From: Benincasa hispida
Taxonomy: Eukaryota; Streptophyta; Magnoliopsida; Cucurbitales; Cucurbitaceae
Assembly (NCBI RefSeq): GCF_009727055.1
Contig: NC_052359.1
Coordinates: 8,663,733-8,727,732 of the forward strand
Reading direction: 5' to 3'
Length of the DNA stretch: 64,000 nucleotides
In this document: one piece after another, positions 2,756 to 63,275 of the stretch
Position numbering within the stretch: position 1 is the first letter of the stretch
Layout of the letters: each line of letters opens with the position of its first letter
Notes under the pieces: generated by a model
What the model saw: the letters and a program-made list of their open reading frames with translations, nothing else
Database searches by the model: none
What the model was told of the DNA's origin: nothing
Translations under genes and position numbers: made by a program

Positions 2756-3067
2756 GTTTCGATCCAATCGGCCATGTCCCACAGGTGAAGAGAAAGACAA
2801 AATAATTTACAAAGAAACCGCGATCACGGGAAAACCATAACAGGACGACGAAAAACGGTATCCCCAACCCACAAATCCCGTTTCGCACCACGACGAAATT
2901 TCTAATCTCCAATTCTTCCCCCAATTTTAGCCGGAGCTTCAAGGATCCTTCAGCTACCCTTTGTTGTAGATTCATTTTCCCGTTCGAATTTGGTTGTTTT
3001 CTTGTTCGGGATGATGCAAGTCAATTCAAGTACTTAGGGTTTGATTCATTGTTTTTAGGAATTTCAA

Positions 3068-6000
3068 ATGGCATCTTCAAGGTCCCCAAATGGATCTTCC
3101 GATGATATTCTCGATAATACGACCCCTTTGATGGGGAATTCGAACCGGTCGCTGGACGATACGCATTCGGGTCGGAGATTTGTGCAGAGGCAAAGTTTGC
3201 GTCAGGCGGCGAGGTTTCTCAGGCAGGCTAGTAGTCGGAGGACGATGCGTGAGCCATCTATGTTGGTTCGAGAGACGGCTGCGGAGCAATTGGAGGAGAG
3301 ACAGAGTGATTGGGCGTATTCGAAGCCGGTTGTGATTCTTGACATCGTTTGGAATTTCGCTTTTGTTGTTGTTGCTGCTACCGTTTTGGTTCTCAGCCGC
3401 GACGAGTCTCCTTCGATGCCTTTGAGACTGTGGATCGTGGGGTATGCGTTTCAATGCATTCTCCATATGGTGTGTGTTTGTGTTGAGTATCGTCGCCGCC
3501 AGCAGCTACGATATTCGACCTTCAATTCAATGGATGAGGGAAATTCTGCACGCGGGATTTCGGGTTTGGGGTCGAGAGCAAACTCGAGTCATTATGTATC
3601 GCTGGCTCAATTGGATGATAACGATAGCAGGTTGGGTTATCTATACGTTCTTACATTATGATTTATATATGATGTCATCTCTTCCAGGAAGTCTGTTTTA
3701 TGATGCTTGGCATGCAGGTTTCGTAATTGTTCTGTTAGGAATTGTAAGGAACCAAAGGAGAGATTGTTTGTTTGATAGAGATGATATGTTTGGTTATATG
3801 CAGCATGTTCAAGGACGTAGATACTGAATTTGATTTTCACTGAGAAGTGCTAGATTATTAGGATGATTACATCAGCTGACCTTGTGCTTAGCTCAGTTGT
3901 ATTATCATAGTGTGGTTTATTGCCTTCTGGTTCAGCTGCACAGTTGCTTAGAAAATCGAAATATTAGGTTAACTTTAGTACTTTACTATCTTGGACTTCA
4001 ATATATGTCATCATTCTTATCTCCAGGCACCATTCCTATTTTCATCAAAACCATCTGTGGTATCAAAGCCTCATAAAGGCTGAAGTCGTCATAGCCTCCT
4101 TGTTGTCGAAAGTCTCTTTGAATGGAATTAATATGTTCAGTGTGAAGACAACTCGTTAAAGCTATCATTGTTTGTTGGTTGTTTAGTCTATCATTAATTG
4201 CTAGATGGTTAGTCCTTGGTGAGGTTTCATGTTTCTCTTTGAACTTTGATTTCAAAGACTTTTTGTAATTACTCGATAGATAACATTTTACTTTAACTTA
4301 GTCAGAACCCCTATCTTTAGTGGAATTTTTGGTGGGTTTGGTTTTTTTTATTGGTCCTTGAATAAACGCAGTTGTTTCTATAATAAAAAAAAATCATTGA
4401 AGTGTTAAGGACTGGTTTTTAATCAAGTAGTTCATTGTTAGTATATTTGTACTCCAGTGTATCATATTGTATGAAAGAGGTGTGAGCGGGAATTTTTCCT
4501 CGGCCTATATTTGTGACTGCACTTACACAATTTAATAAAGAGAAAGTGCCGAAAGGCTTTTCCTTCGTTTGTCTGGTTTCTTTGTTTTCGTTTTGACTGA
4601 GCTCAACACAATCAAGGAAATATTCCATATCCAATTGCATTAATGAACTCTACTCATCTTCCAATCCAAGCATAGCTTACACATATATTACCATCCCAAA
4701 AGTTGATGCTCATCCTTTTAATTGTTGAACTGAAAGACAATAACTACTCAGAACCTTCCACCTACGATAAAGCTTAACAATGGATTTACATTGCAAAATT
4801 TGTTGGGTTATCATTCTTGCAGATGATTTGGGGTGGGTAGATTGATGTAACAAGACCTTATCATCCTCAGTTTCTTGATGATTTTTGTGATTAAGTGAAT
4901 AAAAAGATGTATGATGTGGCAGAAGAATATTGACTTGTTATGAGCTAGCTTTATGCATCTCTTAGATAGCATGATGGCTAGGATAGTAAATTATAATGCT
5001 GCTTGCTCAATTTGGTCCCTAGCTAGCATATCTGAGGAAATACATGCCAAACAAAACTCAGCTAACTATTGACATCAAATAAGTGACTTCAAGATGTTCA
5101 TGAAATGTTACCTCAAAACTGAAAAGTTGGTCTAAAAGATGCTACAACTTCAAGGCAGGCTCTCGCTATATAGAATCACAATATTTTGATAGAAACAACT
5201 ACTTTCATTAAGAAAGAATGAAAGAACACAAGGGTATACAAAAAATCAAGCCCACAAAACATAAAGTTTGAAGAGATTTGGTGTCAAGTTTTCTAGCTAT
5301 AAGGGGATCTTGGTTGCTTTCAGAATTTGTAGATTGATCTCAGGTTTTGGTGTGTTGAAGACGGGACTCATTCATCCTTCTGCTGTATTGGTTTCCACCA
5401 CTAAGCGTTTTGGTTTATTTATTCCTGCTCGAGTTTGTTGCTGTTTTGTTTTGTTTTCTGTTTTGCATTTTGCATTTTGCATATTATATATTCTTTTGTT
5501 GTTTATGAAGGTCACAAGCAGATAGGTTTTTGTGTTGTTTAAGTGCGGGCATATTGTTTTTGTGATATATTGGGGTGTAAAATTGCCTAGCTGCCAATTA
5601 CGTATTTGGGTTTGCCTCAATCTATATTGTATTTCTTTTATTTTTCTCAATGAAATTGACTTCTTCATAAGAGAAAAAAAAATCACATTAGCTTTAACAA
5701 CAGCAGTACAGGGGAGCTTGCTCACATGCTTTTCTTTTATAAGAAACAGAAGGATGTATATTATAAACAAAAAAGGGTGAAATATTCTTATGGCCAAGGT
5801 TTAGGAAACCGTTCCCAAAAAGGACGATGCAATGAGAGCCTTCCAATTACGTGCAACATGTGGAGACTATAATTAGAAAGAATTTATTGTGATTCATACA
5901 CCAAGAAAGAGTATGCTGTACAAACTAGGGAAATCCACAGGTCGAAAGGGCCTTTTGTAAATAACTAGTTGAAAAGGATAGGAGTTAGTTAATTGCTAAT

Positions 6001-9000
6001 TTTTAGTTGTTATGATAGTTAGTTAAACCTCTTGTAACTAATTTCCTCTATAAATAAGATTCTTCTCTCCCATTTTGAAAGAACCATTTCATTAAAAAAT
6101 TAGTCTTTTGGTATTGTACCAAATTTTGGTATCAGAGCACTCCAAGAATCTAGGCTGATGGTGGGAAGAAGGGCTGCCCACCCCAGAGGAGGAGATGTTT
6201 AAGCGCAAGACCAAGAGGTGGAAGAAACCCCCACCCTCTCTCCAAGAACTACAACGATACGCTTGCTATCTGTTGAAGATTCTGTGGAGGGAATTCATGG
6301 ATCATTGAACCACCTTCAAGAAACGGTGGCGACGCTTGTAAGAAGGTTGGATGTATTGACAACACCACCCCAACATGATGAAAATGCCTTGACATTCAAT
6401 CAAGTTTGGGGAAAAAGAGGTAGACGTGGTGTTGGACAGCCAAGAAATTTTAAATTTCAGCGAGAAATTCATCAAAAAAGGGCTCCAAGATTGCATAGGC
6501 AGTTCCAAGAAGATCCAAGAAGATGTTTGAATAGGCAAGAAAGGAAACAAGAATTCCAAGATTGGGATTCTTTGACTGAGTATGATCAAGAAGAAGACTT
6601 TTATGCCCCAAGAAGAGGACGAGATAGAAGATATGAAGCTATGGAATCGGTTCGGTTTGATGGCCAAACTGAACCGGTTCAATTCGGTTTCAAGACTCAT
6701 TTTTTTTTTTTTTTTTAAAAATTAATTTTAAATTTTAAATAACCGAAACAAAGAAGAACTCTGGTTCACGAAAGAAGAAGTGAACGGCGTCCATCAGGCG
6801 TGAGCGGCGGTCTAGTCGACGAAGAAGAACAATGACGGCGGCAAGAAAAGAAACCCTAGTTGGTATAGATCTGTGAGGGTGGAGGGGCGCTCGCTTTTGG
6901 TTCGTGAGGGTGGAGACTGGAGGGGCGCTCGCTTAAATTAGGTTATTTATTTATTATTATTAAATAAATATTAATATTATATATATATTTATATATAAAC
7001 GGTTCGGTTCGGTTTAGAAATCGGTTTTCAAGCTTTGATCCAAACTGAACCGTTTAAATTTGGTTTCAACAGTCCAACGAACCACATCGAACCGAAAAAT
7101 TCGGTTTTGCTTATAAATTGGTTCGGGTCGGTTTTGCAATTCGGTTCGGTTTGAGCAGTTTTTTTGTCCACCCCTAGCTAGAAGTTATCAATACAACTAC
7201 AAAATGAAGATTGACTTACCATTCTACAATGGTAAGTGTGACATTGAATCATTTCTTGATTGGATAAAAAAACACCGAGAAATTTTTCGGTTACATGGGC
7301 ACGCAGGATCACAGGAAGGTACGTTTGGTAGCATTTAAGTTGAAAGGGGGAGCTTCCGTTTGGTGGGACCAATTGGAGGTCAATCAACAAAGATAAGGTA
7401 AAAAACCTATTCGAACGTGGGAAAAAGTGAAGAGGTTGATGAAAGAAAGGTTCCTTCCTCCCAACTATGAGCAAACATTGTATAATCAATATCAAAACTG
7501 CAGGCAAGATCCTCGAACAGTAGAACAGTAGCTGATTTTGTGGAAGAATTCCACCGGTTGGGAGCAAGAACTAATTTGGCCAAAAACGAGTAAAACAATT
7601 GCATGGTTCATTGGCGGGCTAAGAATGGACATCAAAGAGAAGGTAAAGCTTCAACAATTTCATTGGTTAGTTGATGCAACTTCTTGTGCTGAAACAGGGG
7701 AAGAGTTAAATGAAATTCGCTCCAAGAAAATTTCAAGAAAGGTTTCTAGGAATGCTTCCCTTATTAGAAAAGCTAGCACTTCGAATTACGCTTCTACTAA
7801 TCACTCTTCCCCACCAACAGCAACGGAGGAAAAGGAAAAGGAAAAGCAAGAAGAGGTTGGTGATAAGGAAACAAAGGATGTTTACAAGAAGAAAGTTCAA
7901 AATCCTTGTAACTGGCCTACATTGGGCAAGTGTTTTAGGTGTGGCCAAGTAGGTCACTTGTCTAATGAGTGTCCCCAACAAAAAACAGTAGTATATGTGG
8001 ATGAGGAAGAGGATTCCTTGGCTGAATGCAGTGAAGATAATGAGGAAGAAGCCAATTATATTGAGATGGATAAAGGTGACAAGGTGTCTTGTGTTCTTCA
8101 AACGGTGTCGGTTGCTTCCAAAGGAGATTTTGATCTTCAAATACATTGCAAGATGTTTGTTAAGAGAGAGAGAGACTGATGTATTGGGCCTTGTTGTTGC
8201 TGAAAGACAAAAAATACAAAAAACAGTGAAGACATTGAACACCATATTGACTTGGTTCTGGGTGCTACAATCCCTCATCATCCTCACTATAGAATGAGTC
8301 CGAAGGAATATGAGATCTTCCACCAACATATTGAAGAATTGTTAAAAAAGGGCATATTCAACCAAACCTTAGCCCATATGCAGTGCTAGACCTACTCATG
8401 CCTAAAAAAGTTGGTACTTGGAGGATGTACGTTGATAGTAGAGCTATCAACTAGATTATAATGAAGTATAGCTTCCCAATCCTTAGAATAGGTGATTTAC
8501 TTGATCAATTTCGAGGAGCCTTGATTTTTTCGAGAGTGGACTTGAAGAGTGAATACCACCATATTCGAATAAGACCAAGGGATGAGTGGAAGACTGCATT
8601 TAAGCCCTACTTCTCATTCGTAGACCGACGGCCAGACCAAATTACCGATTGAGTTGCTTTGTGACCTACATATTAATCCAGTCTTCAATATTGCTGATTT
8701 GAAGCTTTATTATGCTCTGGATGACTTTCATTTAGCTTCTTAGCTCACTCGAGGACAAGTTTGATTTTGGGAGGGGTGGATTGGTGTAAGGCCGAAAGGG
8801 CCCTTTTGTAAATAACTAGTTAAAAAGTATAGGAGTTAGTTAATTGCTAATTGTTAGCTAATTATTAGTTGTTGTAGTTAATTGCTAATGGTTAGCTAAT
8901 TATTAGTTGTTATAGTTAATTGCCAATTGTTAGCTAATTATTAGTTGTTATGATAGTTAGTTAAACATCTTGTAACTAATTTCCTCTGTAAATAAGATTC

Positions 9001-12000
9001 TTCCCTCTCTCATTTTGAGAGAAAATCATTTCATTCAAAAATTAGTCTTTCGGTATTGCACGTGCACCACATTTAATTTCCCACCCTTCTGAAAGTCCTT
9101 GAATAATTTCAGGAGGATTCACTTTTTTATTCACTTATGAAAGCCCAAGGATCCGTCCAAGCAGATTTGCCTCCTGACCTAACTTAAAAATTCAAGAATG
9201 TGCGTCTGTTTCTATCCAAATCAACCCTTGGTTTTCCCTCCACAACTCCTTTAGTTTTTTTCTTCATCCAGACCATGGGCTCCACACCATAAATTGCTCC
9301 AGTAACTCTTTTCAAAAGACTATTTCCTTCCATATAATCTCCAAAGCCACTTAGAGAGTCAACACTTAATCCCCCATTTTGGGTTGGGAGAGAGGACCAA
9401 CACCATCTATCCATTCCATGGGGGAGTTGTTTCCGCTGATCCAAGTGAAATCTCTCATTTTCTCTTTCAGCTTTTCTATTACTTTTTTAGGGACTTTCAG
9501 CAAAGAGAAGAAATATAATAATGATACTATCGGGAATAGCTTGAGCAAGAAAAAATCTACCACCTTTTGAGAGAGTCAACCCTCCCAAACGGTCAAGTAT
9601 AGCTCTGATCTTATCCATCAAGGATCCAGAAAAAAAATGGATTTCTTATTTCTACCCGGGCAATACCCAAATGATAAAAAGAGAAGTTTTTCACTTTACA
9701 GCAATTGAGTTTGCCAAAGAAGGCAGCTCCACTCTACTGAAAATGATCCTAACGAGGGCTGTTTTAGAGATATCTAGAGACAAGCTTGCTTCCAAGAAGC
9801 AAGCTGAGAGTATCCCACCTAATCTGAAGCTGGCCAGCATTTGAGCAAAAATGAGAACATCATTGTGTATTGTAGGTGAGAGATCCCGACGGTATCCCAT
9901 CCACCCTAAAGCCCCTCAGGATATTCCTTTCACAGCAGAAGTAAATTGCATTGCTGAAGAAATCCCCAATAATAGTGAAAAGGAAAGGGGATAGGGTATT
10001 TTCAGGAGCTTGCCCACTTGCGTTCAATTCATCAGTTTGGCATGTATGGAGGAGGTAGCTAGAGATTTAGAAAGAAAATACATATTTCCTTTAGGATGGA
10101 AATAAAGGAAGCAAATGAAGTCATCCTGTTAATCAAGAGATAAATTTTACTGCTTGAGAAATTGACTTTGGAAAGCACAGGGATCGATATGGGATGAGTC
10201 TGAAATTACAAAAACCAAAATGGTATTGTAATATAGTTTTTTATTTGATTTCTTCACCTATTGAACTTTACGTTTTACTTGCAAAACAAAGAACTTGATT
10301 TAAATGCTGAATTGAAGTTCTAAGTTGTGCAAAATTGTGAATGGTAGCTCTTCCCTTGATGTAGATGTGGTACTATATTCTTCCTGAAAATAATACATTC
10401 TTTTTATTTACTATATTCATTTCTTCCCCTATTATGCCAGTGTACCAAAGCACCTTGAATCTGCAAATACAATGTTCTCCTTCATCTGGTGGATTATTGG
10501 ATTCTATTGGGTATCTGCAGGAGGGCAATCTTTAGCACATGTCTCTCCTCTGCTTTACTGGTTTGTGATTACCCCTTTATTGTATTGGATTTTAAAGTTG
10601 ATGGATTATGTTACTGTCTTCAAGATTCTAACTTTTAGTAATGTGGTTTGAACTGCAGGTTATGTATCATTTTCTTGGGTTTTGATGTGTTCTTTGTGGT
10701 TTTCTGTGTTGCTTTGGCATGTATCATTGGAATTGCTGTTTGCTGCTGTCTTCCCTGTATCATTGCACTTTTATATGCCGTAGCAGACCAGGTAATCGTG
10801 TGGTATTCCTGAATCTTTTTATGCTTTCATTGAAGGGCAAATATTATTGTCTGTAATTATCTTGCCTCCTTTTTTTTTGTGACATTTCCACACAATAAGA
10901 TCCTGTATAAAATTCTTCTACTTTGTCCATAGTAAAACCATTGAAGTAACCATACGAAAGGGAGAGAGACGAGATTTATCTCCTTTTCATTATGTGAATT
11001 TTTCATGTATTGGGTCAATAGTCCCGCATTAGAAATGTGTATAAAAAAGCACGTGAGAAAGAGGGTGGGCTGATGTCCTTAGTTAAGGAGGGACCCACAG
11101 TTTTGTTACTAGATTTTGGGGCTGCCGACACTGATCAAGGGGTGTAAGTCAGCGTAATTTTTTCAATGTCCTTTTGCTGCTAATTTTTTGGTGTACTTGA
11201 GAGAGGCGGAAAGCTCTAGAATTCTTCTCAACCAGCTCTCATCAAAGATTCTGTTATGAAGTTCTGCTTTGTCTTAGCTTGAAATCCTTCTTGTTTCTCC
11301 TAGTTTGTCTTGAGGTTATTCAAGCTTCCTTGCAGAATTTAGGAAGCAAGGGGTGGGGTCCTTTGTACTCGGTTATTACAAAAGGGGAAAAAGAGGAAAA
11401 AGGAAAATGAAAAAAAGAAAGCGAGATTATTGAAGGCTTTTTAGTAGGTAAAGAGCAAGTTCAAGTCTCCATACTCCAATTCGTAGATGATACCTTACTG
11501 TTTTGCAAATATGACAGCACTATGCTGTTAAAACTTAAACATGCAGTGGAGCTTTTTGAATGGTGTTCAGGGCAGAAGGTAAATCGGGATAAATCAGCCC
11601 TCTATGGCATTAATGTGGACGACAGCGATCTCTATAATACAGCAGCTTCTTTGAATGTTTCGGCTGACCACCTTCCTTTTTATTATCTAGGGTTGCCTCT
11701 AGAGGTTACCCGAAAAGAGCCTCCTTTTGGCAGCCGGTCCTAGACAAAGTACAAGGTAAACTTGACAAATGGAGGAGATTTAATCTATCTAGGGGTGGAA
11801 GAGCCACTCTATGCACCTCAATCCTCTCAAACCTTCCAATTCATTACTTGGCCATCTTCCTTATGCCCGAAGGAGTAGTATCTAAAATGGAAAGGATAAT
11901 ACGAAGCTTCTTTTGGGAAGGCAACAAGGGCAACAAGCAAAATCACTTGGTTAAATGGGAATTGGTTCAAAAACCTATAGCAGATGGTGGTCTAGGCCTT

Positions 12001-14045
12001 GGGGGTTTCAAATCTATGAATATTGCACTCCTTACTAAATGGGGATGGAGATTTTTCAATGAGAAAAACTCTCTTTGGGACAAAGTTGTTAGAAGTATTC
12101 ATGGTAAGGATGCTTTTGATTGGCACACGGCAGGAAAAGGTGGTAAGAGCTGGATTAGCATCTTAAAGACATGACTTAAGGTAGAATCCTTGGCCACTTT
12201 CAAACTTGGTAATGGCAGCCGAATTGCTTTCTTGTTAGACACTTGGGAAGGATCTTCCCCCTTCAGCATCCTTTATCCAAGCTTATTCAGAATTTCCATG
12301 CTCCCCAATGGCTCAGTTGCCGATCATTGGGACAATAGCATCGAAGGTCGCTCAAAGATGAAGAAGTGTTGGCCTTCCAAGACTTGTTGAGGAAAATTGT
12401 AAGTAGAAGCCCTTCTCTCTCTTTTGATAAAAGAGTGTGGTCCATCTCAACCACTGGCCAATACACCGTTAAATCCCTTAAAGTTCCCCTAACACCATCC
12501 TCCCCTTTGGAAAAGCCCCTCTTCTCGGCTATTTGGAAAACAAAGAGTCCAAGAAGTGTCAACATCCTCATTTAGATTATGCTTTTCAGTCAGCTGAATG
12601 TAGCCGAAGTTCTTTAGAGAAAGCAACCAGCATCCTCCCTTTCTCCCACAATTTGCCCATTCTGTCTACAATATAGTGAGGACTCCCTTCACCTCTTCTT
12701 TACACGCCCCTATTCAGATTGGTGTTGGAAGAAACTGCTGTGTTTCTTCAACTTATCATGGATCTTGTGCAATGATTTCAAAAGTAATGTGTTTCAACTC
12801 TTTGCCGGCCCCATTCTCCACAATTCCATCCGTCTGTTATGGTGTAATGCAGTAAAAGCCTTATTGACAGACCTTGGTTTGAAAGAAATCAAAGGATTTT
12901 CCATAACAAAGCTACTAGATGCCAAGACCGCTTTGAAGCCGCCTGCTGTCAGGCCTCCTCCTGGTGCATCCTCTCTGCTCCCTTCCTTGCCTATAGTCTT
13001 TCAGATTTCAACCCCAACTGGGGGGCCTTTATTTCCACCCCCCCTTCGGATAGCATTAAACACTACCGGATTTCAGCACTACTCATTGAACTTTTTATTT
13101 ACTTCCATAAGTTTTAGACCACTGTTTTGGCTTTATTATTAAATTTTCATATTCGATTGTTCTTTGGTTATTGTCCTCTCATTTTGTAATCTTGTTGATG
13201 TCTCTCCCATTTATGGGTTTGAATTGGAAATGATGTGGATATTAAGGGAGTGTCAACCTAGTTGAGACGTCCAGGTGCATCTCCTGATCCTTTTAGAAGC
13301 ACTTGTATTTTCACTTTGCTTATTGTATAACTCTCTTGTACTTTGAACTTTAGCTCCTCTCTATTTATTAATATAATGAATTGTTTCCTTTTTTAAAAAA
13401 AATAAAAAGAAAGTGAGAAAGAGATAGAACCTTTTGTTTCTCTTAGAGGGTTTAGGACATGGGTTAGGTAGCAAAACCTTTCTCCCTAAACAAAACCATC
13501 TAAGATGGATAGTATGTTTAGTTTGTTTACGAGGCCAACCTTACTGCCTTTTGATGCATATAATTATATACATGCAGGAAGGAGCAACCAAAGAAGATGT
13601 CGAGCAGTTGTCAAAATTTAAATTCAGAAAGGTTGACGAGGCCGAGAAACTCTCCACTGATGTACAGGAACCTCTTGGTGGGATAATGACCGAGTGTGGT
13701 ACGGATTCACCCATTGAACGCGCCCTTTCGCAGGAGGATGCGGTATGTATGCCATACCATGATCATCATATACCAAACCTGCAACTTTGTAGGATCTTAT
13801 TTTGTTACAAACTAAAATTGGCTTGTTCTGTTCTCAAGTTGATGACATTTCATGGAAATCTTGTCTTTCAGGAGTGTTGCATCTGCCTTTCTGCATACGA
13901 GGATGGTGTCGAGCTACGAGAGCTCCCGTGTGGTCACCACTTCCACTGTGCCTGTGTCGATAAATGGCTGTATATTAATGCCACCTGTCCTCTCTGCAAG
14001 TACAATATCCTGAAAAATAGCAATCTCGCTCAAGAGGAAGTTTAA
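3068..14045 (+). CDS. RING-H2 E3 ubiquitin ligase, membrane-anchored (At1g12760/At4g11680-like), 5 exons
   Basis: Five exons join in frame to 384 aa: 3068-3630, 10441-10560, 10659-10791, 13578-13742, 13872-14045. All introns are GT-AG. The N-terminal half is Arg/Ser-rich and cytosolic-looking. Hydrophobic segments lie at about residues 88-110, 119-141, 202-218 and 229-268. The C-terminus is a textbook RING-H2 finger: C329-x2-C332-x14-C347-x-H349-x2-H352-x2-C355-x10-C366-x2-C369, with W359 at the E2-contact position. The length agrees with the Arabidopsis family (about 380-410 aa). The start is the first in-frame Met of exon 1 and gives the expected family N-terminus. Family knowledge indicates transfer of ubiquitin from an E2 at a membrane; the substrate is unknown. 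Intron 1 (6.8 kb) and intron 3 (2.8 kb) are swollen by retroelements, yet every splice site is intact, so the gene looks functional. Confidence 0.93.
3631..5935. other. first part of intron 1 of the RING gene, no named element
   Basis: This intronic sequence runs before the gypsy-type element. I see no exon of a second gene, no paired terminal repeats and no coding homology. Open frames here have no family resemblance and are interrupted by poly-T/A stretches. Confidence 0.6.
5936..6118 (+). repeat. left LTR of the gypsy element
   Basis: It matches the right LTR from 'cgaaaggg' through 'ttagtctt(t/c)ggtattg'. It contains a TATA-like 'ctataaataag' near 6050. It lacks two of the three 38-bp repeat units present in the right LTR, and its first bases have drifted, so the left boundary is approximate. 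Confidence 0.75.
6127..6138 (+). other. retrotransposon primer-binding site (initiator tRNA-Met)
   Basis: TGGTATCAGAGC is complementary to the 3' end of plant initiator methionine tRNA. It lies just inside the left LTR and supports both the LTR assignment and the plus orientation. Confidence 0.85.
6218..8180 (+). pseudogene. gag of the gypsy element (broken by insertion, stops and frameshifts)
   Basis: The Arg/Gln-rich N-terminal part reads open from 6218 to the insertion point at 6641. After the insertion the frame resumes with the conserved '[19 protein letters not shown]' region (from about 7203). Stops then break it until a long frame at 7538-8179. That frame ends in a CCHC zinc knuckle, C-x2-C-x4-H-x4-C (cysteines of '[14 protein letters not shown]', about 7930-7971), followed by an acidic tail. 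This is Ty3-gypsy nucleocapsid architecture. Not functional. Confidence 0.85.
6642..7176. mobile_element. 535-bp non-autonomous insertion inside gag, 5-bp duplication AGCTA
   Basis: AGCTA occurs at 6637-6641 and again at 7177-7181, and removing the segment between them restores the gag frame. Both ends are crowded with 'ggttcggtt/aaccgaac' motifs, the middle has a poly-T run (about 6698-6716), and the right end is 'ttgtccacccct'. I see no terminal inverted repeat and no coding capacity, so the class is unassigned. Confidence 0.7.
8281..8652 (+). pseudogene. truncated gypsy reverse transcriptase fragment
   Basis: It reads '[20 protein letters not shown]' followed, after small frame breaks, by a '[11 protein letters not shown]'-like stretch and '[15 protein letters not shown]'. 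These are RT fingers and palm motifs (RT box with the first catalytic Asp in 'RVDLK'). The frame is lost after 'DEWKTAFK', before the YVDD box, and jumps to sequence just before the right LTR, showing a large internal deletion. Confidence 0.8.
8782..9060 (+). repeat. right LTR of the gypsy element with 38-bp tandem repeats
   Basis: The LTR runs from TGGTGTAAGG to GGTATTGCA (279 bp). Three tandem units of about 38 bp ('aattgctaattgttagctaa...') lie at 8842-8879, 8880-8917 and 8918-8958; the left LTR carries only one shortened copy. Tandem units in this part of an LTR (U3) often vary in number between copies. Confidence 0.8.
9065..10200 (-). pseudogene. LINE (non-LTR) reverse-transcriptase fragment, antisense in intron 1
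   Basis: On the minus strand, short frames give recognisable LINE RT pieces in the right order: '[20 protein letters not shown]' (RT box of the 'GDPLSPFLF' type, about 9960-10015), a degraded YADD-like site read as 'HNDVLIFA' (9691-9900 frame), then '[14 protein letters not shown]' and 'KMGDGGL', which match the region after the RT domain (9184-9563). Stops and frameshifts are frequent, so it is dead. Both ends are approximate and no target-site duplication was found. Confidence 0.75.
11427..13403 (+). mobile_element. 5'-truncated LINE insertion in intron 3, with 15-bp target-site duplication
   Basis: The body starts just before the RT catalytic box 'QFVDDTLLF' (FVDD at 11480-11491), so everything upstream is missing. 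It continues through 'YYLGLPL' and '[16 protein letters not shown]' into a C-terminal zinc-binding-like region (Cys/His cluster about 12655-12730) and ends in an A-rich tail at about 13395-13403. A 15-bp repeat 'aaaaagaaag(c/t)gaga' flanks it at 11412-11426 and 13404-13418, with one mismatch. 5' truncation, a tail and a variable-length duplication are the hallmarks of target-primed reverse transcription. Stops break the frame. Confidence 0.85.
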
Positions 14046-15368: not shown

Positions 15369-15569
15369 GTATAAAAGAATATATAAACTAAAATATTTGC
15401 ACTATTTTTTTTTAAAAAAATTGTAATAATTATCGTCTTAGTAAAAAAAAATTGTTCTATTTTAATCGAGTTAATTTGATTATCTCCCTAATTTCAAACT
15501 TCAATATAAACAAAAATATTATTATTACTATTATTTTTTAAATTCGTGGTCACAAAATTGTATTTGATA

Positions 15570-17389
15570 TGTAACGACCGGATCCTTACATATTATGGTC
15601 CGATCGCTACGACATGCATACTTAAACTTTTCTATCATGAGATGAGTTTTGACAAAAATCTCAAAAGAACATATCTAAGATTTTATTAATTAGGTAGAAA
15701 ACTATATAAAAAGTTTATTTTACAATACACCAGGTCCATAAAAGTAGTGATACAAAAATGCATATGCCTATAGTAGTGAGTTTGATGGTTGACCATTTGA
15801 GCAACGTCCAGTTCTGCCACCTACGCTGTGTCCTATAAATTCTGTAAAAATAGGATGAGTATATAATATAGCCCGTAAGTAGTTCTCACATAGGGTAGTG
15901 ACCAAATGCACAATCACATGCAACATGTCCTGAAAACATATTATTGGGACCGAAAACATATGATAACATGTGGTGTTCGTTATGCTTCTAATGTAAATTT
16001 CTCCGCCCTGATAGGAAGATGAGGATTTAGGCGGAAACTAACCCATCTAATGATTAGCGGGTCATATAGTCAGTAGGACCAGAGTCGCATCCAACATCAA
16101 CCATTAACATAAACGTAAGATTGGACTAGAGGGGTGCAACCATACATACTTTGTTAGTCCCTAGCATAAACTTACATAGAATTGGGTCTAGAAGGGTGCA
16201 ACCATATATGCCCTGCTAGCCCTAGAAGCATAACCTTTATCTAATTAAAATTTAATCTTATGACAAACATAATGCATGAGGTCCCTTGTTGATAAACATA
16301 TTTTAAACATGTAATGCAACATAACAATAACATAATTATGCAACATATTAAAGGTACACTACCGTGAAACACTTAAAAGAGAGGGTGAGATAAACTAATT
16401 ACCTTGACTATGATCCTAATTATTCCTTATTATTCCTTATGGTTTATGGTTTAATCCGTAGAGCTTTCCCTCTTAAACCAGAAGGAAATTTGGGCAGCAC
16501 TTCCCTCGCGTTTCCTCCTCCAAACTAACAGAATTACTTCACACTTTTCACACGATTTTTACTACTGAGTTTTATTTGAGAATGAGTTTAACTTCCAGCC
16601 TAAAGCCTCCTATTTATAGCCGTTTCCAGCTCTTTTTTGTGTGACAACTCATCCTACAAATGACTTTTTTAAAATTACTTAGGTTTAAGAATTTCTCTTA
16701 ATAAGATACCTAATTTTGGCTAACGTTTGCCCTTACGTCATCCATCTTTGTTTGTATTCCATTTTAGGGTTCTTCATGTATAATCTATAAGATCGTAGCC
16801 AAATTCAATGCATAATCCACGCTTCTATCCAAATCTCGCTCTTTCTATTCTCAGAATCTCGCTTTCTCCAGCTTTCTCGCTCATTTGGCTGTCTCTTATA
16901 CACATCTAGATGTGTATAAGAGACAGGTCTAGTTGAGAATCTCGCTCTCTCCAATTTTCTCTTCAATCTCGCTAGTTTTCACGCATGGGTTGCCTTCACT
17001 GCTTGTGGATTCCACTTCCCTTTTTAACTCTTTCAAATTTTAAGAGTATATGGGTAATTAATTCACCTCCAATTCTTCCAATGAGCAGTGCCCAAACAAA
17101 AAGTCATCTACTCGTCCAACTTCTAATTAAGCCTCCCTGATTCTGCCCCTTATTCATTATTTTTGGATAATTAATAAATTTCTTATTTTTTTTCAATTCT
17201 AAATTTCCACCCGATTTTCCTATTAAGTTTATATATTTTCATTCTTAATTATATATTTAATTTGTTTTCTTGCTTTCTAAATTAGGGTTAGGGTATTACA
17301 TTTACCACCCCTTTAAATAAAATTTCGTTCTGCTTAACATTTGACATTTAATTTCCTGTAGTGTATGCGTACAAATTTGGGTTGTTACA
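15570..17389 (-). mobile_element. solo LTR (probable Ty3-gypsy), 1820 bp, TSD TGATA
   Basis: The segment begins TGTAAC and ends GTTACA, the short inverted ends typical of LTRs. The same 5 bp, TGATA, precedes (15565-15569) and follows (17390-17394) it. No internal coding region is present, so it reads as a solo LTR. Minus orientation is inferred from its likeness to LTRs that begin 'TGTAA.ACCC'. It carries several 'atctcgct' motifs (16840-16975) also found in the solo LTR at 53118-56134. A synthetic adapter junction lies inside it at 16889-16926, so its internal length is not to be trusted. Confidence 0.85.
16889..16926. other. Nextera mate-pair junction adapter (two Tn5 mosaic ends) left in the assembly
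   Basis: The 19-bp Tn5 mosaic end CTGTCTCTTATACACATCT (16889-16907) is followed directly by its exact reverse complement (16908-16926). The resulting 38-bp perfect palindrome is the junction sequence of the Nextera mate-pair protocol. It is an engineered hyperactive Tn5 end and not a plant sequence. It marks where two DNA ends several kb apart were ligated in the library, so the flanks may not be contiguous in the genome. Confidence 0.97.
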
Positions 17390-17394
17390 TGATA

Positions 17395-17990
17395 TTTGGA
17401 TTTGAATTATTTGATTATCCTCTTAATTTTGTAATATTCTTTTTTTAAAAAAAAAAATCGTGATAATTATCACTTAGCCAATTTAATCTTGAAGATATGA
17501 TTATCTTTTTAATCTCAAATTTTGATATAAACCAATATTTTTTAAAAAAGATTTTTGTGATAGTTCTTTCTTATTTTTGTATAAATTTTTTTATTGGATG
17601 ATTTGACTATTTCTTTTAAATTTTAAATTAAGCCAGAATTATTATTATTATTATTATTATTTTAGATTTTGTTATAGTAATCTCATAGTTTGATTTTTTT
17701 TTAATTTGATTATCTTGTTAATTTCCAATTTTGATTTAAACTAATATTTTATTTTGTAAAAATATATCTTGATATTTTTCTTATTTAATAAAAAAAACTT
17801 TTTATTGGATGATTTGATTAATCTCCTACTTCTAAAGTTTAAATTAAACAAAAATATTTTTCTATTTTTTAAATTCATTTGAATTAGATGATTTGATTAT
17901 TCTCCTATTTTTAAATTTTAGTTAAAACCAAAGTATTATTATTCTTTTCTTTTCGTTATAATTATATGTATATTAGTTTTTTTCAATTAG
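17395..17990. other. AT-rich intergenic DNA with (ATT)n microsatellite
   Basis: No gene is seen. A run of ATT/TTA triplets lies at about 17637-17662. The sentence-like repetition of 'ttggatgatttgattat' around 17590, 17807, 17887 and 18240 suggests degenerate short repeats. Confidence 0.5.
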
Positions 17991-17992
17991 TT

Positions 17993-18235
17993 GAAAAATT
18001 ATTTTAAATGACAAAACTGCTAAAAATATTTACAATTAATGACAAAATATTAGTCTATCTGTGATAGACCGTGATAGATAGCGATGGACTACTATTTGTG
18101 TCTATCTATGTTATGATAGACACAGTAATAGTCTATCGATGTCTATCGCAGTTTATTACAGATAGATTGTGTTATTTTTGTTATTAGTTGTAAATATTTA
18201 GTTTCATTTTCCTATATTTAAAAATAGCTCTCAAG
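17993..18235. repeat. MITE-like element, copy 1 ('tctatc/gatagac' palindromes)
   Basis: The arms are inverted: 'aaaactgctaaaaatattta' on the left pairs with a 'taaatatttag...' arm on the right. The centre is rich in 'agtctatc/gatagact'. Three related copies occur at 35800, 45658 and 45893. The size and long imperfect inverted ends suggest a non-autonomous Mutator-like MITE, but no target-site duplication was resolved. Confidence 0.6.
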
Positions 18236-18239
18236 AAAT

Positions 18240-19008
18240 TGGATGATTTGATTATCCTCCTAATTTTTTTTTTAACTTTTAATTTCAACAAAAATATATA
18301 TATTTTTCTATGCAAACAGGAACCACAAACTTAATCTCGTTTGATTTGCAACAATATTCTTCTTGATTTTAAATTTTATTTCATTTTTTTTTTTTATGAA
18401 TTGGCATATACTTACAACAAATTTGAAAAGAGAAAAAAAAAACATTAAAAAGGATGAAACTAGTAGAATTTATTATAAACCCCTAAACTCTTTGGTATGC
18501 ATTTACCGTGAAAAAATTAGAAAAAGATTAAAACAATCATTCTATTCTTTATCACTTTGTCGGTCTCTAAATTGCTTGAACTTTGAAATTTTTCTTAAAC
18601 TTGAAAATTAATACAAAGTCTTTTCTCCACACTATTCTATATGTCTATTGCGTGTATAGAAAAAACTACAAAAACATATAAAAAAGTTACATTAAACCAC
18701 TCTACATGTTTTTACAAAATTGAAAAGTGAAAAAAAAAAAAATGAAAAAGATGACATATGTTAAGCAATAGAAGAGAGAGGTGATATCTTCTTAAGGAAG
18801 ATAGAAGGGATACTTGAAACAGATAAATTAAACTTAAGGAACTAACAAAATTAAAAAAAATATATCTACAAAAAAAATTCTAAAAAAAAAAGCAAAGAAG
18901 TTAGAGAGAGTGAGTTAACAAAATTAAAAAAAGAAAAAAAGAAAAAGAAAAAAAGAAAAAGAAAAAAAGAAGGGAGAGGAAATGAGGGAGGTTGAAATTA
19001 GTTATTTG
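18240..19008. other. A-rich intergenic DNA with (GAAAAA)n repeat
   Basis: No gene is seen. A purine microsatellite of gaaaaa/gaaaaaaa units lies at about 18925-18970, directly before the left LTR of the next element. Confidence 0.5.
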
Positions 19009-24871: not shown

Positions 24872-25050
24872 TTTACTAAGTGGGCCCAATTAAACAAATT
24901 AATATACTTTTTGCTAAACAAGAATTTTATGCAAATAATTTCTTTTTGAGTTAAACAATAAATTAACAAACACTTGAAAATACCCTAATTATCAACAAAT
25001 AAAAGCAGGTTTGTTATCATTAGAATATCAATTGATTAATTAAAATTAAT

Positions 25051-27430
25051 TAATTTGAGAAGGAAAAAAAAAATTCAAATCATAACTGGATTTGATTTTT
25101 TTTTTTAAATTTCTTTAATTAATGTGAAGTAGAGATTATTAGAAACAATATGTGATTTAAAAAAAAAATTGTGAATAAGAGATTAGAGGATTCAATGTGA
25201 TTTGTATTTTTATTTATACATTTATTTCAATTGAAGTAGATACTAGAGATAAAATGTGACTTTTAAAAAATATTTTTTGTGAATAAGAGACTAGAGGATA
25301 AAATATAATTTTTTTAAAAAAAATTTCCTTTATTTGTAAAGAAGTAGATATATATATATATATATTGGAAGTAAGAGAAGTAGAAATTGTTGAATATAAG
25401 ATGTGATTTTTTAAAATATTGTTCGGGAATTAGAGAGTAGAGAAAAATATGTGATTTCAATTTTTTTTATTTAATGTGAAATAGATATTAGTGATAAAAT
25501 GAGATTTTTTAATGATTTAAATGTAAAATTACGTAAGATATCTTAATTACCATCAACTAAAAAGGGCAAAAGGAAAAATTAAGCCTCGTTTGATTACTAA
25601 TTCGAAAAATTGTTCTAGAATACAAAGAATTTAGTAGAAAACAAAAATGAAAATACCTTTGTCACAATATTCGGAAACATATATGGTTATAATTTAAAAT
25701 TTTGAAATTTGAACTCAAAATTTAAAATTTTTGTTTGTTGTGAATTTGAAAATACAATAGAAGATTAATTTGGGTTTGATAAAATTCATTATTCTAGGTA
25801 ACAATAATAAAAAGTTATAATATAGCCTTTTGTTATTATTATGAATTTTAATTTTTAATAAGGGAAAGAAAGATAATGGAGAGATTACATGATGGAAAAA
25901 AGTTTTTTGATTGGTTAAAATACAATTGATAAAATGTATGAGAGATCAATAAATTTTTTCCGGAGAAAATAACATAAATAATTTTCATAAAGATAAAATA
26001 AAAGAATTATTTTATCAAAAAAGAAGATCCTATAAAATTGTAGGATTAATCTTGATAAGATGTTGCACCAGTTAAAATAATAGTAAGTATATTAATCTTC
26101 CATAAGATATTTTACAATAGAAATGGATATGAGATACACACTTTGTCGATGAGATGCTTCTTGGCTTTTAAAAAAATATATGTAATATCCAATTTGTAAT
26201 TTGTGTAGTAGGACATGAACATGTCTTGCAAAACGTGTGTTATGCTTTCATAATTTTTGAAAATAAAGAAAATGATAATTTATAGTTTTTAAAAATGAGT
26301 TATTTTTAGAAATCTTTTTTGAAAATAATTATACCAAACACATTTAATTATTTTTCTTATATTTTTATTTTTAAAAACATAAAATAAAAATGAATCACGA
26401 ATCAAATCGAACCCATATATTTTTTCCTATAACCTTTTTTAGATAGTATAGATATAGATACATCAATTTAATTTATGGCTATTTCCTTTAAATTGAATAA
26501 ATATAATCAATTGACTAAGATTGATTCAAAGCCCTTTAGTCAAATTGGCTTGCTTATAGTCACAATGATTACGAGTTGAAACTTATGACTAATATTTTCT
26601 TTAAAATAATAAAGTACCGAAGTTCCAATAGGATATTTCTCTTGGAAAAGTGATGGTTTTTTCTAATTAAACTCGAAAATAATATTATGCTTATATTAAA
26701 AATTGTAGATCGTGAACGGTAACAAATATCTCGACATTTTGTCAAAATTAGCCTAATTAAAGCTAATATTAAATTTGTACTATTTTAAAATTAAAGGCAG
26801 ATTCAATCTCTCCATACATCGAAAAATGATATTTCAATATTTAAACTAATTATATAGAAAACAATAAATAATAAAATAAAGGAAAGTATTTAGGTACCTT
26901 GTAGTATCTATCTTTTTGTATTTCATCGAATTGTTCAATCATAATTTGATTCGTTATAAATTTTTCTTACTTTTTTTTTAAAATAATTTTTTTTATAACC
27001 GATACATAAAGATGAATATATCTTGAAATGCATCGCTAAATATATAAATGAACTAAAAAAATCATAAATATATTCCATGTTCATAAGCAACCGTTATTAA
27101 TCTAAAATTCATCCATTCAAGAACTTGATGTAAATAAATTAAGTAAAGATATATTTTTTTTAAAACAAAAATAATAATATTCTTGAAATTATTTATTGCA
27201 ACTAGTATTTTTTTTTTAATTTTTTTTTTTAACAATTGTTTTACAAAGTCTCCTAAAAAGCCAAGCCCGTCCAAGGGGCATATCCGTAATAATCCCTCGC
27301 CGATATCGAAATTCAAGTTGTCGGAAGAAATTTGGAAAACGTTCCCAAAATAATAATAATAACAATAAAAAAATAAAATAGAAGAAGTTGACCTCACTAG
27401 GCGCTGACCGTCACTAAAATAATAGTTTCC
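25051..27430. other. AT-rich intergenic DNA upstream of the PATROL1-like gene
   Basis: No gene, terminal repeats or coding homology are seen. 25100-25510 has loosely repeated 'gaagtagatattagagataaaatgtgattt'-like units of about 80-100 bp, suggesting old tandem amplification, and a short (TA)n run near 25350. Confidence 0.5.
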
Positions 27431-46460: not shown

Positions 46461-48131
46461 CTATATTTTCTCTCCTTCATTCACAACAAGCTTTCCCTCG
46501 TTAAAATCACAGGCTAAAATGGGCACACCAAGTTGTTTCTGCAGTTTCTTCACCACAAACACTTCTGGCTCCTCACAAATACTCACCACTGTTCCCATCC
46601 TTCCGAGCCGACCCGTCCGGCCAGCTCGATGTGCATAGTGAATTGAATCTGTAGGCAGATCCAGATTGACTACAAGATCGCATTCAGCAATGTCCAAACC
46701 CCTAGCTGATAATTCATTGGTCACTAAAACTCTCAATTCACCATTCTTGAAACTTTTCAACGTAGTTGATCTTGCAAGTTTTCCCAGATCCCCATGTAGC
46801 TCTGCCGCAGTTATCCCACGAGCCTTTAACTTGAAGACGACGTCCCTTAGTTGCTTTGTGTGGTTCATGAAAACCATCACGAATTTCGCATCAAGTGCAT
46901 GAATGCATCGTCTTAACACATCAACCTTATGCTGCAACCTTGATGTACAATAGTAGTGTTTTAAAGAGGGAGGTAGAGTGTCAATGGCAGTTTTACTCTG
47001 CAAAGTTGAATTCAACGTTGATCCAGAAGAAGGCACTCTCAGATTAACAGGTCCCGAGAGAGGAACTGATTCGAGGGGGGCAACCTTGTTGGCCTTGACA
47101 AGAAGAGGGTCACACCCCCAGCTTTTAGCTGCCCTTACTACGGAGAATGGCACTGTTGCAGACACCATGACTAACCGTCGCTCTGCCCTTCTTGCTTGAG
47201 TGTTTTCTGATCCTGGTGAATTGGCACCTGATCTTCTTCCAACATGTTCCAATATACGATGCATGTCTTCCCGGAAATTAAAGGAAAGTAGTTCGTCTAC
47301 CTCATCTAAGATCAAGAAGCTACAACCATGGGTGTGAAGCTTCCCTGCTGCACTAATCTCTGCAATCCTTCCTGGTGTCCCAACCACAATGGCAGGTTTG
47401 TTTTTCTTTAAAGCTTCCTCCTGTCTTGATCGGTTCGCACCTCCAACAAGCTGCTGAACTACTTTTCGATTTGCAGGTCCTAATATCTTCTCAACCTCTC
47501 TCACAATTTGCATTCCCAACTCCCTTGATGGAGCTACAATAACTGCTTCTATCTCCTTTTTCTTTCCAGGATCATCATTGTAACTCGAAACTGTATTCTT
47601 AAACGGACCTATTTCTGAAAGGATGGGAAGAACATATGCCAATGTTTTCCCAGAACCCGTGTAAGATTGAATGACAACATCATGTTTTTTCAAAATGGTG
47701 GGAATTGATGCAGATTGAATGTCAGTAGGAACTGTGAATCCTTCACTCTCTAACCTCTCTATCAATGAATCTGCCAGACCAAGCTCAGAAAATGACTTGG
47801 CAGCAAATGGAGCCATCTGTGTTTCTACCAAATTTCTCGCTCCAACAACCTTCTTTTCATTGTTCCGTACAATCTTTACTCTACTTTTCGAGATATCCTG
47901 TGGAGAATCCAACTCGGTAACTTTATTATTCACTTTGCTCTTGCCTGTCTTCTGAAACTCACTTTTGAACCCAAGGCTGGCAAGAGTAAGGGGTCCATGG
48001 TTCAGCTCAGCCTTGTTAAGACAAAACACACCACTGTGAAACAAAGTCGATCGACAAACTTGCGGTAACTTATGGAAGGGAAACGACTCTCCAGCAAACA
48101 GAAATAACCTGCCTGGTACTAAAGCATTCAT
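46461..48131 (-). CDS. RH47: DEAD-box-family RNA helicase, mitochondrial RH47/ISE1 type, single coding exon
   Basis: A 556-aa uninterrupted frame. The first 40-60 residues are basic and hydroxylated with few acids, as in a mitochondrial presequence. Helicase motifs are in order: Q motif with Q139, motif I SYTGSGKT (156-163), Ia PSRELG (201-206), GG (230-231), TPGR (252-255), motif II DEVD (276-279), SAT (324-326), motif IV around 418-424, TNELSARGLDI (471-481), and HRAGRTGR (501-508). The protein should unwind or remodel RNA using ATP. Arabidopsis RH47 (ISE1, EMB1586, At1g12770) is a mitochondrial helicase needed for embryogenesis, and its loss changes plasmodesmatal transport. Motif II is DEVD rather than DEAD, and motif I has SY where AQ is usual; all catalytic residues remain. 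It converges with the PATROL1-like gene; the stop codons are 2.09 kb apart. Confidence 0.95.
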   Translation of the reverse strand: MNALVPGRLFLFAGESFPFHKLPQVCRSTLFHSGVFCLNKAELNHGPLTLASLGFKSEFQKTGKSKVNNKVTELDSPQDISKSRVKIVRNNEKKVVGARNLVETQMAPFAAKSFSELGLADSLIERLESEGFTVPTDIQSASIPTILKKHDVVIQSYTGSGKTLAYVLPILSEIGPFKNTVSSYNDDPGKKKEIEAVIVAPSRELGMQIVREVEKILGPANRKVVQQLVGGANRSRQEEALKKNKPAIVVGTPGRIAEISAAGKLHTHGCSFLILDEVDELLSFNFREDMHRILEHVGRRSGANSPGSENTQARRAERRLVMVSATVPFSVVRAAKSWGCDPLLVKANKVAPLESVPLSGPVNLRVPSSGSTLNSTLQSKTAIDTLPPSLKHYYCTSRLQHKVDVLRRCIHALDAKFVMVFMNHTKQLRDVVFKLKARGITAAELHGDLGKLARSTTLKSFKNGELRVLVTNELSARGLDIAECDLVVNLDLPTDSIHYAHRAGRTGRLGRMGTVVSICEEPEVFVVKKLQKQLGVPILACDFNEGKLVVNEGEKI

Positions 48132-48960
48132 CTTTCCTAAAGTTTTCCCTAGAAATGATTACATAAGCTGTGATAACTCAACTCAGATAACCCAGCAAGG
48201 AAAATTGCAACCAAAATTCTCTGAACAAGAATGAATTCCAATTCAAGTTGATGATTTTATATAAATCTGAAACAAGCAAATGCAAAAATCAGCCAAGATA
48301 ACAATGATGCTGCAACAAAGTAATATTCAATTTTTATCAAAGATTAAGAACCACACATCTGGCTTTCTTAATATATCGAATCAACAAAAATGATAATGGA
48401 CTGAAGATTTTAATGAAACGTGTATCATTAATTTTGTTTACAAATAGAAAGAACCCAAAATACAAGTTGGCATTTTCTCAAACATCTGGTGGGCAAAGCC
48501 ATGTGAGAATATCAAAACGCTCGCTACCCAGCTGAATTAATGCATATCCAACTGCAAGACTGGTTCCAACACAGACAAACAATTAAAAAGACGACCATTG
48601 ATTTTCTACACATTAATGAAGCGCAACTCAAATTTTTCCCTCAAGTACGAGCCATGTAAATTTTATTGGGGCAAAAGATATGAAAAACATTGGAGCATGG
48701 AAGGTATTTAACTTTGAAATTTGACGAAGCAGAAGCTCAAGAAGGAGAATGGAAGAGAAATTAAGTGTGAAAAAAAATATGAAGAAGAAACTCCACTTAC
48801 AGAACAGTCCAGATGAGGAATTCGGTGGAGGAAAAAGAAGAAGAAGATGTAGATTCCGGCGATAGTTACTGCAATAGATCTCCGGCGAAGATCGACGGCG
48901 GCGGCGACCCCAGAACGGCGGAACAGAAGCGGATTTGGGCGACAATAAAAAATTAGCAGG
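48132..48960 (-). promoter_or_regulatory. probable 5' UTR with intron, and promoter, of the RH47-like gene
   Basis: On the minus strand a strong donor (T|GTAAGT, intron from 48800) is followed by good acceptors, the best being 'ttgcttgtttcag' (AG at 48267-48268). Splicing would join an upstream leader (about 48801-48950) to sequence just before the ATG at 48131. The 105-codon frame 48628-48945 crosses that donor and is therefore more likely leader and intron than a protein. Inferred without transcript data. Confidence 0.45.
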
Positions 48961-55039: not shown

Positions 55040-55290
55040 TATCAACAAAATCAGCATGACTAGCGAGAAAATCATCATGAGCAAGATCACCCACATGAGC
55101 GAGATCATCCTTATGAGCGAGATTTACCATTCCCAGCGAGATTTGGCACTTTCCAGCGAGATTTAGCGCAAAACCACCGAAATCCAGTGCAAACTAGCGA
55201 GATTTCTGTCCCTAGCGAGACCCACCTCTCGCTCTCGCTTTCTCTCTCTCATTCTCGCTCCCTCTCGCTCTTGCTCACTCTCGCTCTTGA
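55040..55290. repeat. 'gcgagat' / 'tctcgct' motif cluster in the 3.0-kb solo LTR
   Basis: At least seven copies of 'agcgaga' on the plus strand are followed by about ten 'ctcgct' motifs in the next 100 bp, so the two halves can pair with each other. The same motif marks the solo LTR at 15570-17389. Confidence 0.75.
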
Positions 55291-61601: not shown

Positions 61602-62510
61602 ATCTCTAGAAAAACATCATCCTTAAGTAATGTATTGTATGTACCTTCCTTATATAGGAACATGGTGTCTGGGAGTCTATTGAATCCAACTGGGTTTAAG
61701 ATTGTACTAGAAGTTGACAAGGTTGTCCACATAAAAAATGGAGACTTTATTGGTAAGAGGTATTTGGCTAATGGCCTTCTTATATTGAATACTGTCCTTG
61801 TTGTGAATATGATGAATGCAAGTGCTTCTAATTTTGCTTACATAGTTGAGTCTCTTGATGTGTGACATGGTAGACTAGGTCATGTGAATATTGCATTATT
61901 TAAGAAACTTAAGGAATTAAAACTAATTAATGCATCTGAAACACATGAAACTAGTAAATGTTCTATTTGTGAAACAAAATTTATCAAGAAACCTTCTAAA
62001 CCTTGTACAGAATTGCTTGAATTGATTCACTTTGATTTAGCTGATTAAAATACCATAAATAGAGGCGGGAAAAATTGCTGCATATCTTTTGTGGATGATT
62101 TTTCTAGATATACTAAAATTAATCTTTTAAAAACAAAAGATGAAGCTAGTAGTATGTTTTTGAAATATAAAGCAGAAGTATAGAATCAATTAGATAAGAA
62201 AATCAAAAGGTTAAGGTTATATAGAGGTGGTGAATACAATGATAATTTCCTTAAAGAATTTTGTGAATCAAATGACATTATTCATGAATTTACTGCACTT
62301 TATTCACCATAACAAAATGTTATAGCAGAAGGTAAAAATAGAACCGTTAAGGAAATGATGAATGCTATGTTGTTGAGTTATGGGTTGTTTGATAATATAT
62401 GGGGTGAAGCTGTGCTTTCTGCCTATTTTATTCTTAACAAGGTACCTCACAAAAAAGTAAGACACCTTACGAACTTTAGAAACGCTACACACCTAATCTC
62501 ACTTACCTGA
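61602..62510 (+). pseudogene. copia GAG-pre-integrase and integrase core, decayed
   Basis: The frame contains 'NVLYVPSLYRNMVSG', the pre-integrase signature 'WHGRLGHVN' (partly lost to a stop at about 61863), the zinc-binding 'C-x2-C' of 'CSICETK', then the integrase core with Asp in 'HFDLAD' and Asp in 'FVDDFSRYT'. The expected Glu region follows near 'NRTVKEMMNAM'. Several in-frame stops. Not functional. Confidence 0.82.
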
Positions 62511-62512
62511 AG

Positions 62513-63275
62513 GTGTGGGGATGTTTGGCTAAGGTACCATATCCTGCATTCAAGAAACCTACGATAGGATCTAAAACTTTTAACCATGTTTTTATTAGTT
62601 ATGCTCAAAATAGTGCTGCATATAGATTTAGGTGCTTGAATGATAGATCTATACGTGTATATAGGGATGTAGAATTCTTTGAGCATGTTTTTCCATTGAA
62701 AAGGGAAAAAATTGAATCTATTAGAACATCTAATATCGAAAATGTATTTGTTTCTATGTCTTATTCGTTTAATAGTATGCATGAAACAGGAAATAATATA
62801 GCTTCGGGTAGTATGTCTGAAACTAAAGATGTTAGCACTTCTGATAGAATGCATTATATAGAACCTAAAAGAAGTAAGAGACAAAGAGCAGAGAAAAATT
62901 TTGGTCCTGATTTTTTTACTACTTTTTTAGTTGAGAGGCCAACTAATATTGATTGTCAGTTTGCATATATGTATATAATAGATGAGGATCCTAAAATTTA
63001 CCAAGAAGCCTTAAGTTTTGTAAGCTCCAACTTATGGAAGGAAGTCATTAAGTATGAACTAGATTCTTTAACCATGAACCAAACTTGGGACTTAGTAGAT
63101 TTTCCCAAATGAAGTAAACCTATTAAGTACAAGTGGATTTTCAAAAAGAAAACAAGGTTAGATGGTTCAATTGAGAGATATAAGGCTAGATTAGTAGTAG
63201 TAGGTATACATAAAAACAAGGTATTGATTATTTGACATGTATTCCCTTGTGATACATACTATAGAGCCTTGATTG
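62513..63275 (+). pseudogene. copia linker and N-terminal reverse transcriptase, cut by an LTR
   Basis: A 199-codon frame (62513-63112) covers the post-integrase region ('YRFRCLNDRSIRVYRDVEF') and the start of RT ('NLWKEVIKYELDSL', 'NQTWDLVDFPK'). After a stop, 'KYKWIFKKK' and 'YKARLVV' continue it. The frame then slips and ends at 63275, where another LTR begins. The RT catalytic YVDD box is not in the window. Confidence 0.82.

Follow-up and report, generated by a model that had tools for sequence, protein, structure and literature searches.

A double Tn5 mosaic end within assembled plant DNA, very probably an untrimmed mate-pair junction

The window analysed here, a whole stretch of 64,000 bases that contains no N, is plant nuclear DNA judging by its genes. 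A DEAD-box helicase (Pfam) is encoded on the minus strand at 46461-48158, and its best named relatives are plant proteins, several of them annotated as 'DEAD-box ATP-dependent RNA helicase 47, mitochondrial'; the three closest proteins are 96, 92 and 89% identical to it, and those of Carya, Liquidambar and others 72-74%. A RING finger frame occupies 13428-14045, and pieces of retroelements are represented by a CCHC zinc knuckle in 7532-8179 (Pfam), a weak reverse transcriptase match in 11411-11743 that falls below the Pfam cut-off, and an SH3-like domain of retroviral polymerases in 62480-63112 (Pfam). The region 3059-14045 is perhaps a single RING finger gene with introns that hold retroelement pieces, the CCHC and reverse-transcriptase-like frames lying in between; the frame at 3059-3661, which has no Pfam match, was assigned to this gene by eye.

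In intergenic sequence about 2.8 kb beyond the end of the RING frame, two 19-bp Tn5 mosaic ends abut in opposite orientation at 16889-16926. No visibly broken gene was seen at this position, nor was there any stop-to-stop frame of at least 110 aa that spans it. The mosaic ends and the repeats that surround them are as follows:

15470..15533, plus strand: AT-rich repeat family, left-hand member (E=1.4e-9 when the model comprised just the seven right-hand copies)
16834..16972, plus strand: cluster of five TCTCGC copies with the adapter inside it (from motif positions)
16844..16878, plus strand: diverged direct repeat, left copy, starting 45 bp before the adapter
16889..16907, minus strand: Tn5 mosaic end, genome-joined end towards the left flank (exact 19-mer)
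16908..16926, plus strand: Tn5 mosaic end, genome-joined end towards the right flank (exact 19-mer)
16928..16961, plus strand: diverged direct repeat, right copy, starting at the second base after the adapter
17402..18309, plus strand: AT-rich repeat family, seven right-hand members (profile model)

The match to the mosaic end is exact. The 19-mer CTGTCTCTTATACACATCT reads on the plus strand at 16889-16907 and on the minus strand at 16908-16926, with 0 mismatches in either, and the 38 bp form a perfect palindrome with 19-nt arms, 100% complementary, and a spacer of 0 nt. The earlier note had described two 19-bp ends lying head to head as a 38-bp junction at 16889..16926, and both the arrangement and the coordinates were reproduced to the base. 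These two were the only matches with up to three mismatches in the 64,000 bases, and 100 shuffles of the window gave a mean of 0.01 mosaic-end matches, with no shuffle containing two, which rules out a chance origin for the double end. The other adapter and linker strings tried had 0 matches in the window, so that of all these strings the mosaic end alone was matched.

Several published descriptions bear on the identity of these bases. The 38-mer is printed, identical in every base, in PMC7357533, where it serves as a ring adapter labelled with biotin for the circularisation of ultrasound-sheared fragments of about 4 kb, and PMC3046479, which describes the Nextera system, gives the 19-mer as the mosaic end in reverse complement. 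According to PMC4248319 and PMC3347997 the mosaic end is engineered, the latter describing it as a chimera that combines the natural outside end with the inside end and was optimised for in vitro use. Long mate-pair fragments from Nextera libraries, according to the Skewer paper (PMC4074385), contain junction adapters in mid-fragment and need trimming; the passages concerned do not show the 38-mer itself.

The window agrees with the Nextera mate-pair junction adapter in each of the 38 bases and in how both ends are oriented, and the flanks also score high on a profile derived from other copies (see below); what differs from such a junction in a raw read is only the setting, since the copy in the window sits in assembled, N-free sequence. 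The natural ends of Tn5/IS50, outside (OE) and inside (IE), are related 19-bp sequences, but the window has no element between its two ends, which differ from OE at 3 of 19 positions and from IE at 4 of 19. Natural Tn5 ends were rejected as the identity on these differences.

Library adapters left over in assemblies are a known kind of artefact, and the 38-mer is found well beyond this plant. In the GTDB species collection it occurs exactly in at least 120 stretches, with at least 147 copies from at least 19 assemblies, and the flanks differ. All of these are minimum values, dominated by a few assemblies, two of Enterococcus and one of Ideonella; the sources among the matches listed include cyanobacteria, Enterococcus (two), Streptomyces (two), Collinsella, Flavobacteriaceae and others. 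The exact 38-mer also occurred in seven IMG/VR stretches and in five plasmid records out of 72,556, but neither in complete E. coli genomes (20,395 records) nor in phages (50,697 records). As a control, the palindrome of the natural outside ends was found in 0 viral contigs, which is a weak control given that the engineered one occurs there in only seven stretches. A search for papers that connect six of the prokaryote assemblies with mate-pair libraries found none.

Some of these records deserve mention in their own right. The 38-mer is internal in records titled 'chromosome', one of them also 'complete sequence': L108 (CP017948.1), L122 and L127 (CP051236.1), and L032 (CP051244.1). In the plasmid record NZ_MT039157.1 it forms the final 38 bases, as if the circle had been closed via the adapter, and in the loci L048, L051, L092 and L096 two to four junctions lie within a few hundred bases and share flanks, as if junction reads had been strung together.

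The single mosaic end, frequent in viral contigs, behaves differently from the internal double end of the window. Across 95 whole-contig viral loci (25 of 120 having been excluded as parts of longer contigs), 101 of 102 copies of the single 19-mer were at most 100 bp from a contig end and read outward; this is ordinary read-through.

We then asked what the flanks say about the chemistry of the junction, using a profile of 14 positions built from 275 unique ends (279 of 294 being usable) of the 147 copies among the matches listed. The profile favours G at position 1, T at 2, T at 4, A or T at 5, A or G at 6 and C at 9, a pattern that we take to be the Tn5 target preference, and it separates flanking ends from background with an AUC of 0.83 when the ends are scored leave-one-out. 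In the window the right flank scored above 99.7% of sampled positions and the left flank above 82.6%, so that the left half is unremarkable; the summed score exceeded that of 99.4% of sampled pairs. In PMC7357533 this 38-mer is ligated to sheared DNA, so that the junction could also come from a chemistry other than tagmentation. The flank score nevertheless favours ends cut by the transposase over ligation of a ring adapter to sheared ends, which is the less favoured origin, with the modest weight that a single site can carry.

Taken together, the exact 38-mer, the published adapter, the recurrence with differing flanks and the flank profile bear out the earlier note, which had read the sequence as a mate-pair junction and as an artefact, and the plant relatives of the helicase in the window agree with its description of an adapter embedded in a plant genome. 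We are nearly certain that the 38 bp are an untrimmed mate-pair junction, that is, an artefact of the sequencing library; the 38 letters are a laboratory adapter and have no biological content.

How the two flanks relate to each other is a separate matter, on which the local repeats give some indications. The best match between the two sides of the adapter is that of 16844-16878 with 16928-16961, in which 29 of 35 columns are identical and a 26-nt core reaches 88%; such a direct-repeat score was reached by 2% of random 60-mers compared with 6 kb elsewhere in the window. This divergence makes the flanking repeat too different for two readings of one fragment, and the repeat fits the TCTCGC-rich patch in which it lies. 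With the 38 bases of the adapter left uncounted, the five TCTCGC copies are spaced by 23, 18, 27 and 27. The same motif forms a second cluster in the window, at 55063-55284, where seven GCGAGA are followed by five TCTCGC with the strand switch about midway; the other six copies are scattered.

The AT-rich family consists of eight diverged copies of about 70 bp, unevenly spaced, and within the 64-kb window it is confined to 15470-18309. The model built from seven copies found no further member in the window at E up to 10, and a model of all eight gave one further match there, at E=1.4. Its presence on both sides of the adapter hints that the flanks belong to one neighbourhood, as far as the 64 kb examined go.

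No near-identical copy of either 4-kb flank was found elsewhere in the window by blastn, with 16.9 kb available on the left and 47 kb on the right, and this places the window in the class of junctions without a flank copy. The left 4-kb flank itself contains a tandem pair of 94 bp at 97% identity, and the strongest outside match of the right flank, over 184 columns at 86%, joins sequence about 2.1 kb past the adapter to 24872-25055.

To judge how such junctions enter assemblies we turned to the 147 prokaryote copies among the matches listed (the listed copies). A run of N was at most 300 bp away in 53 of these 147, as against 7.6% of the positions that served as controls within those loci, and 31 of the 147 listed copies had a second copy within 500 bp. 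Reading frames were in phase across the adapter in 4 of the 14 testable listed copies and out of phase in the other 10, whereas 556 of 659 random uncut points were in phase (p=7e-6), as were 70 of 208 mispaired flanks; the flanks, where they can be tested, therefore mostly do not read on. The test left out 133 of the 147, of which 29 were near a locus edge and 86 had a long frame on neither side or on one side only; in the other 18 the longest frames ran on opposite strands.

Copies of the flanks, defined as exact adjoining 25-mers within loci of up to 8 kb, could be sought for 130 of the 147 listed copies, 17 being dropped for flanks that were short or contained N or adapter. Unlike the window, 59 of the 130 classifiable copies among the matches listed had a flank copied in the same locus: 15 showed a symmetric arrangement and 44 other copies, and 71 had none. 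By class, again among the matches listed, a run of N within 300 bp accompanied 21 of the 71 without a copy, 17 of the 44 with other copies and 0 of the 15 symmetric ones.

On these grounds, and given the artefact, we regard it as probable that a gap in the window was closed through the shared palindrome, a reading drawn from the prokaryote assemblies for a window that itself has no N. Tn5 transposase carrying mosaic-end adapters would have fragmented and tagged the plant DNA, and circularisation of the tagged fragments end to end would have placed two mosaic ends back to back between genomic ends. Junctions left untrimmed in the reads before assembly or gap closing would then have offered a palindromic 38-mer common to all junction reads, producing a false overlap of reads from both sides of a gap, and a gap in the TCTCGC-rich patch may thus have been closed through the 38-mer with loss of sequence. 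The earlier note had raised gap closing with a 'perhaps'; it now appears as the likeliest route, by analogy with the listed copies found near N. We infer that what belongs between 16888 and 16927 has been lost or misplaced.

A second reading, that a single junction molecule was built into the assembly, would place the real right flank upstream of the left one, by anything from tens of bases for a tiny circle to kilobases for a normal mate pair; given the artefact, we consider it unlikely, though worth weighing. The prokaryote copies lend it examples: the 15 symmetric ones (of 130, among the matches listed) have an exact duplication of 27-158 bp on the two sides of the adapter, the pattern expected of a tiny circle, and of the 44 cases with other copies 32 consist of one flank with one copy (among the matches listed), 21 of them with the sign that circularisation predicts, the right flank recurring upstream or the left downstream, eight at 1.9-5.3 kb. 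The sign rule is weak, however: the remaining 11 of the 32 run the other way, three of them at 2.9-4.1 kb, and a count of 21 in 32 does not clearly stand out, so that the sign gives circularisation no more than suggestive support. The right flank in the window does resemble, from its second base, the sequence starting 45 bp before the adapter, but 29 of 35 columns is too diverged for one fragment read twice, and the exact form of a tiny-circle duplication was rejected on this account. Nor does the window contain what a tiny circle or a kilobase mate pair would leave, a near-identical copy either of the right flank on its upstream side or of the left one on its downstream side, the adjoining 60 bases giving at best the same 29 of 35 columns. 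The earlier suggestion that the flanks may have been kilobases apart is possible in the light of those prokaryote flanks that recur kilobases away; in the window, though, neither flank has a near-identical copy, and the repeat family shared by both sides hints that they are neighbours.

The third reading, which for the same artefact we rate as distinctly improbable, is that the 38 bp were inserted into continuous sequence and nothing was lost. It is consistent with the TCTCGC spacing once the adapter bases are taken out and with the AT-rich family on both sides, but among the prokaryote copies without flank duplication only 1 of 6 testable was in phase, as against the 556 of 659 controls (Fisher p=5e-4, on small numbers). 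A natural or engineered Tn5-derived insertion in the plant DNA, finally, is scarcely credible: the sequence itself is all that was found in its support, there are 0 nt between the two ends, the end is described as engineered in PMC3347997, and the bases on either side, CTCATTTGG and GTCTAGTTG, agree at only 4 of 9, so that the 9-bp target duplication is absent and ordinary transposition of Tn5 or of a mini-element is rejected.

Returning to closure of a gap via the palindrome as the preferred reading, we lean slightly towards a broader view, without claiming that it is unreported: internal double mosaic ends would constitute a recognisable class of misjoin in public assemblies, including chromosome, complete and plasmid records, in which one built-in molecule leaves duplicated flanks, the right one belonging upstream of the left, and a gap closed through the palindrome leaves sequence missing. 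The window would be of the second kind, with plant sequence missing at 16888/16927. Because runs of N lie close to many of the listed copies and most testable frames among them are out of phase, the internal 38-mer can serve as a cheap marker of a suspect join, and its presence in this plant shows the need to screen the whole assembly for it. Since an adapter was left in the assembly, the join at 16889-16926 is not to be trusted, and it is unfit for the analysis of gene order, promoters or repeats.
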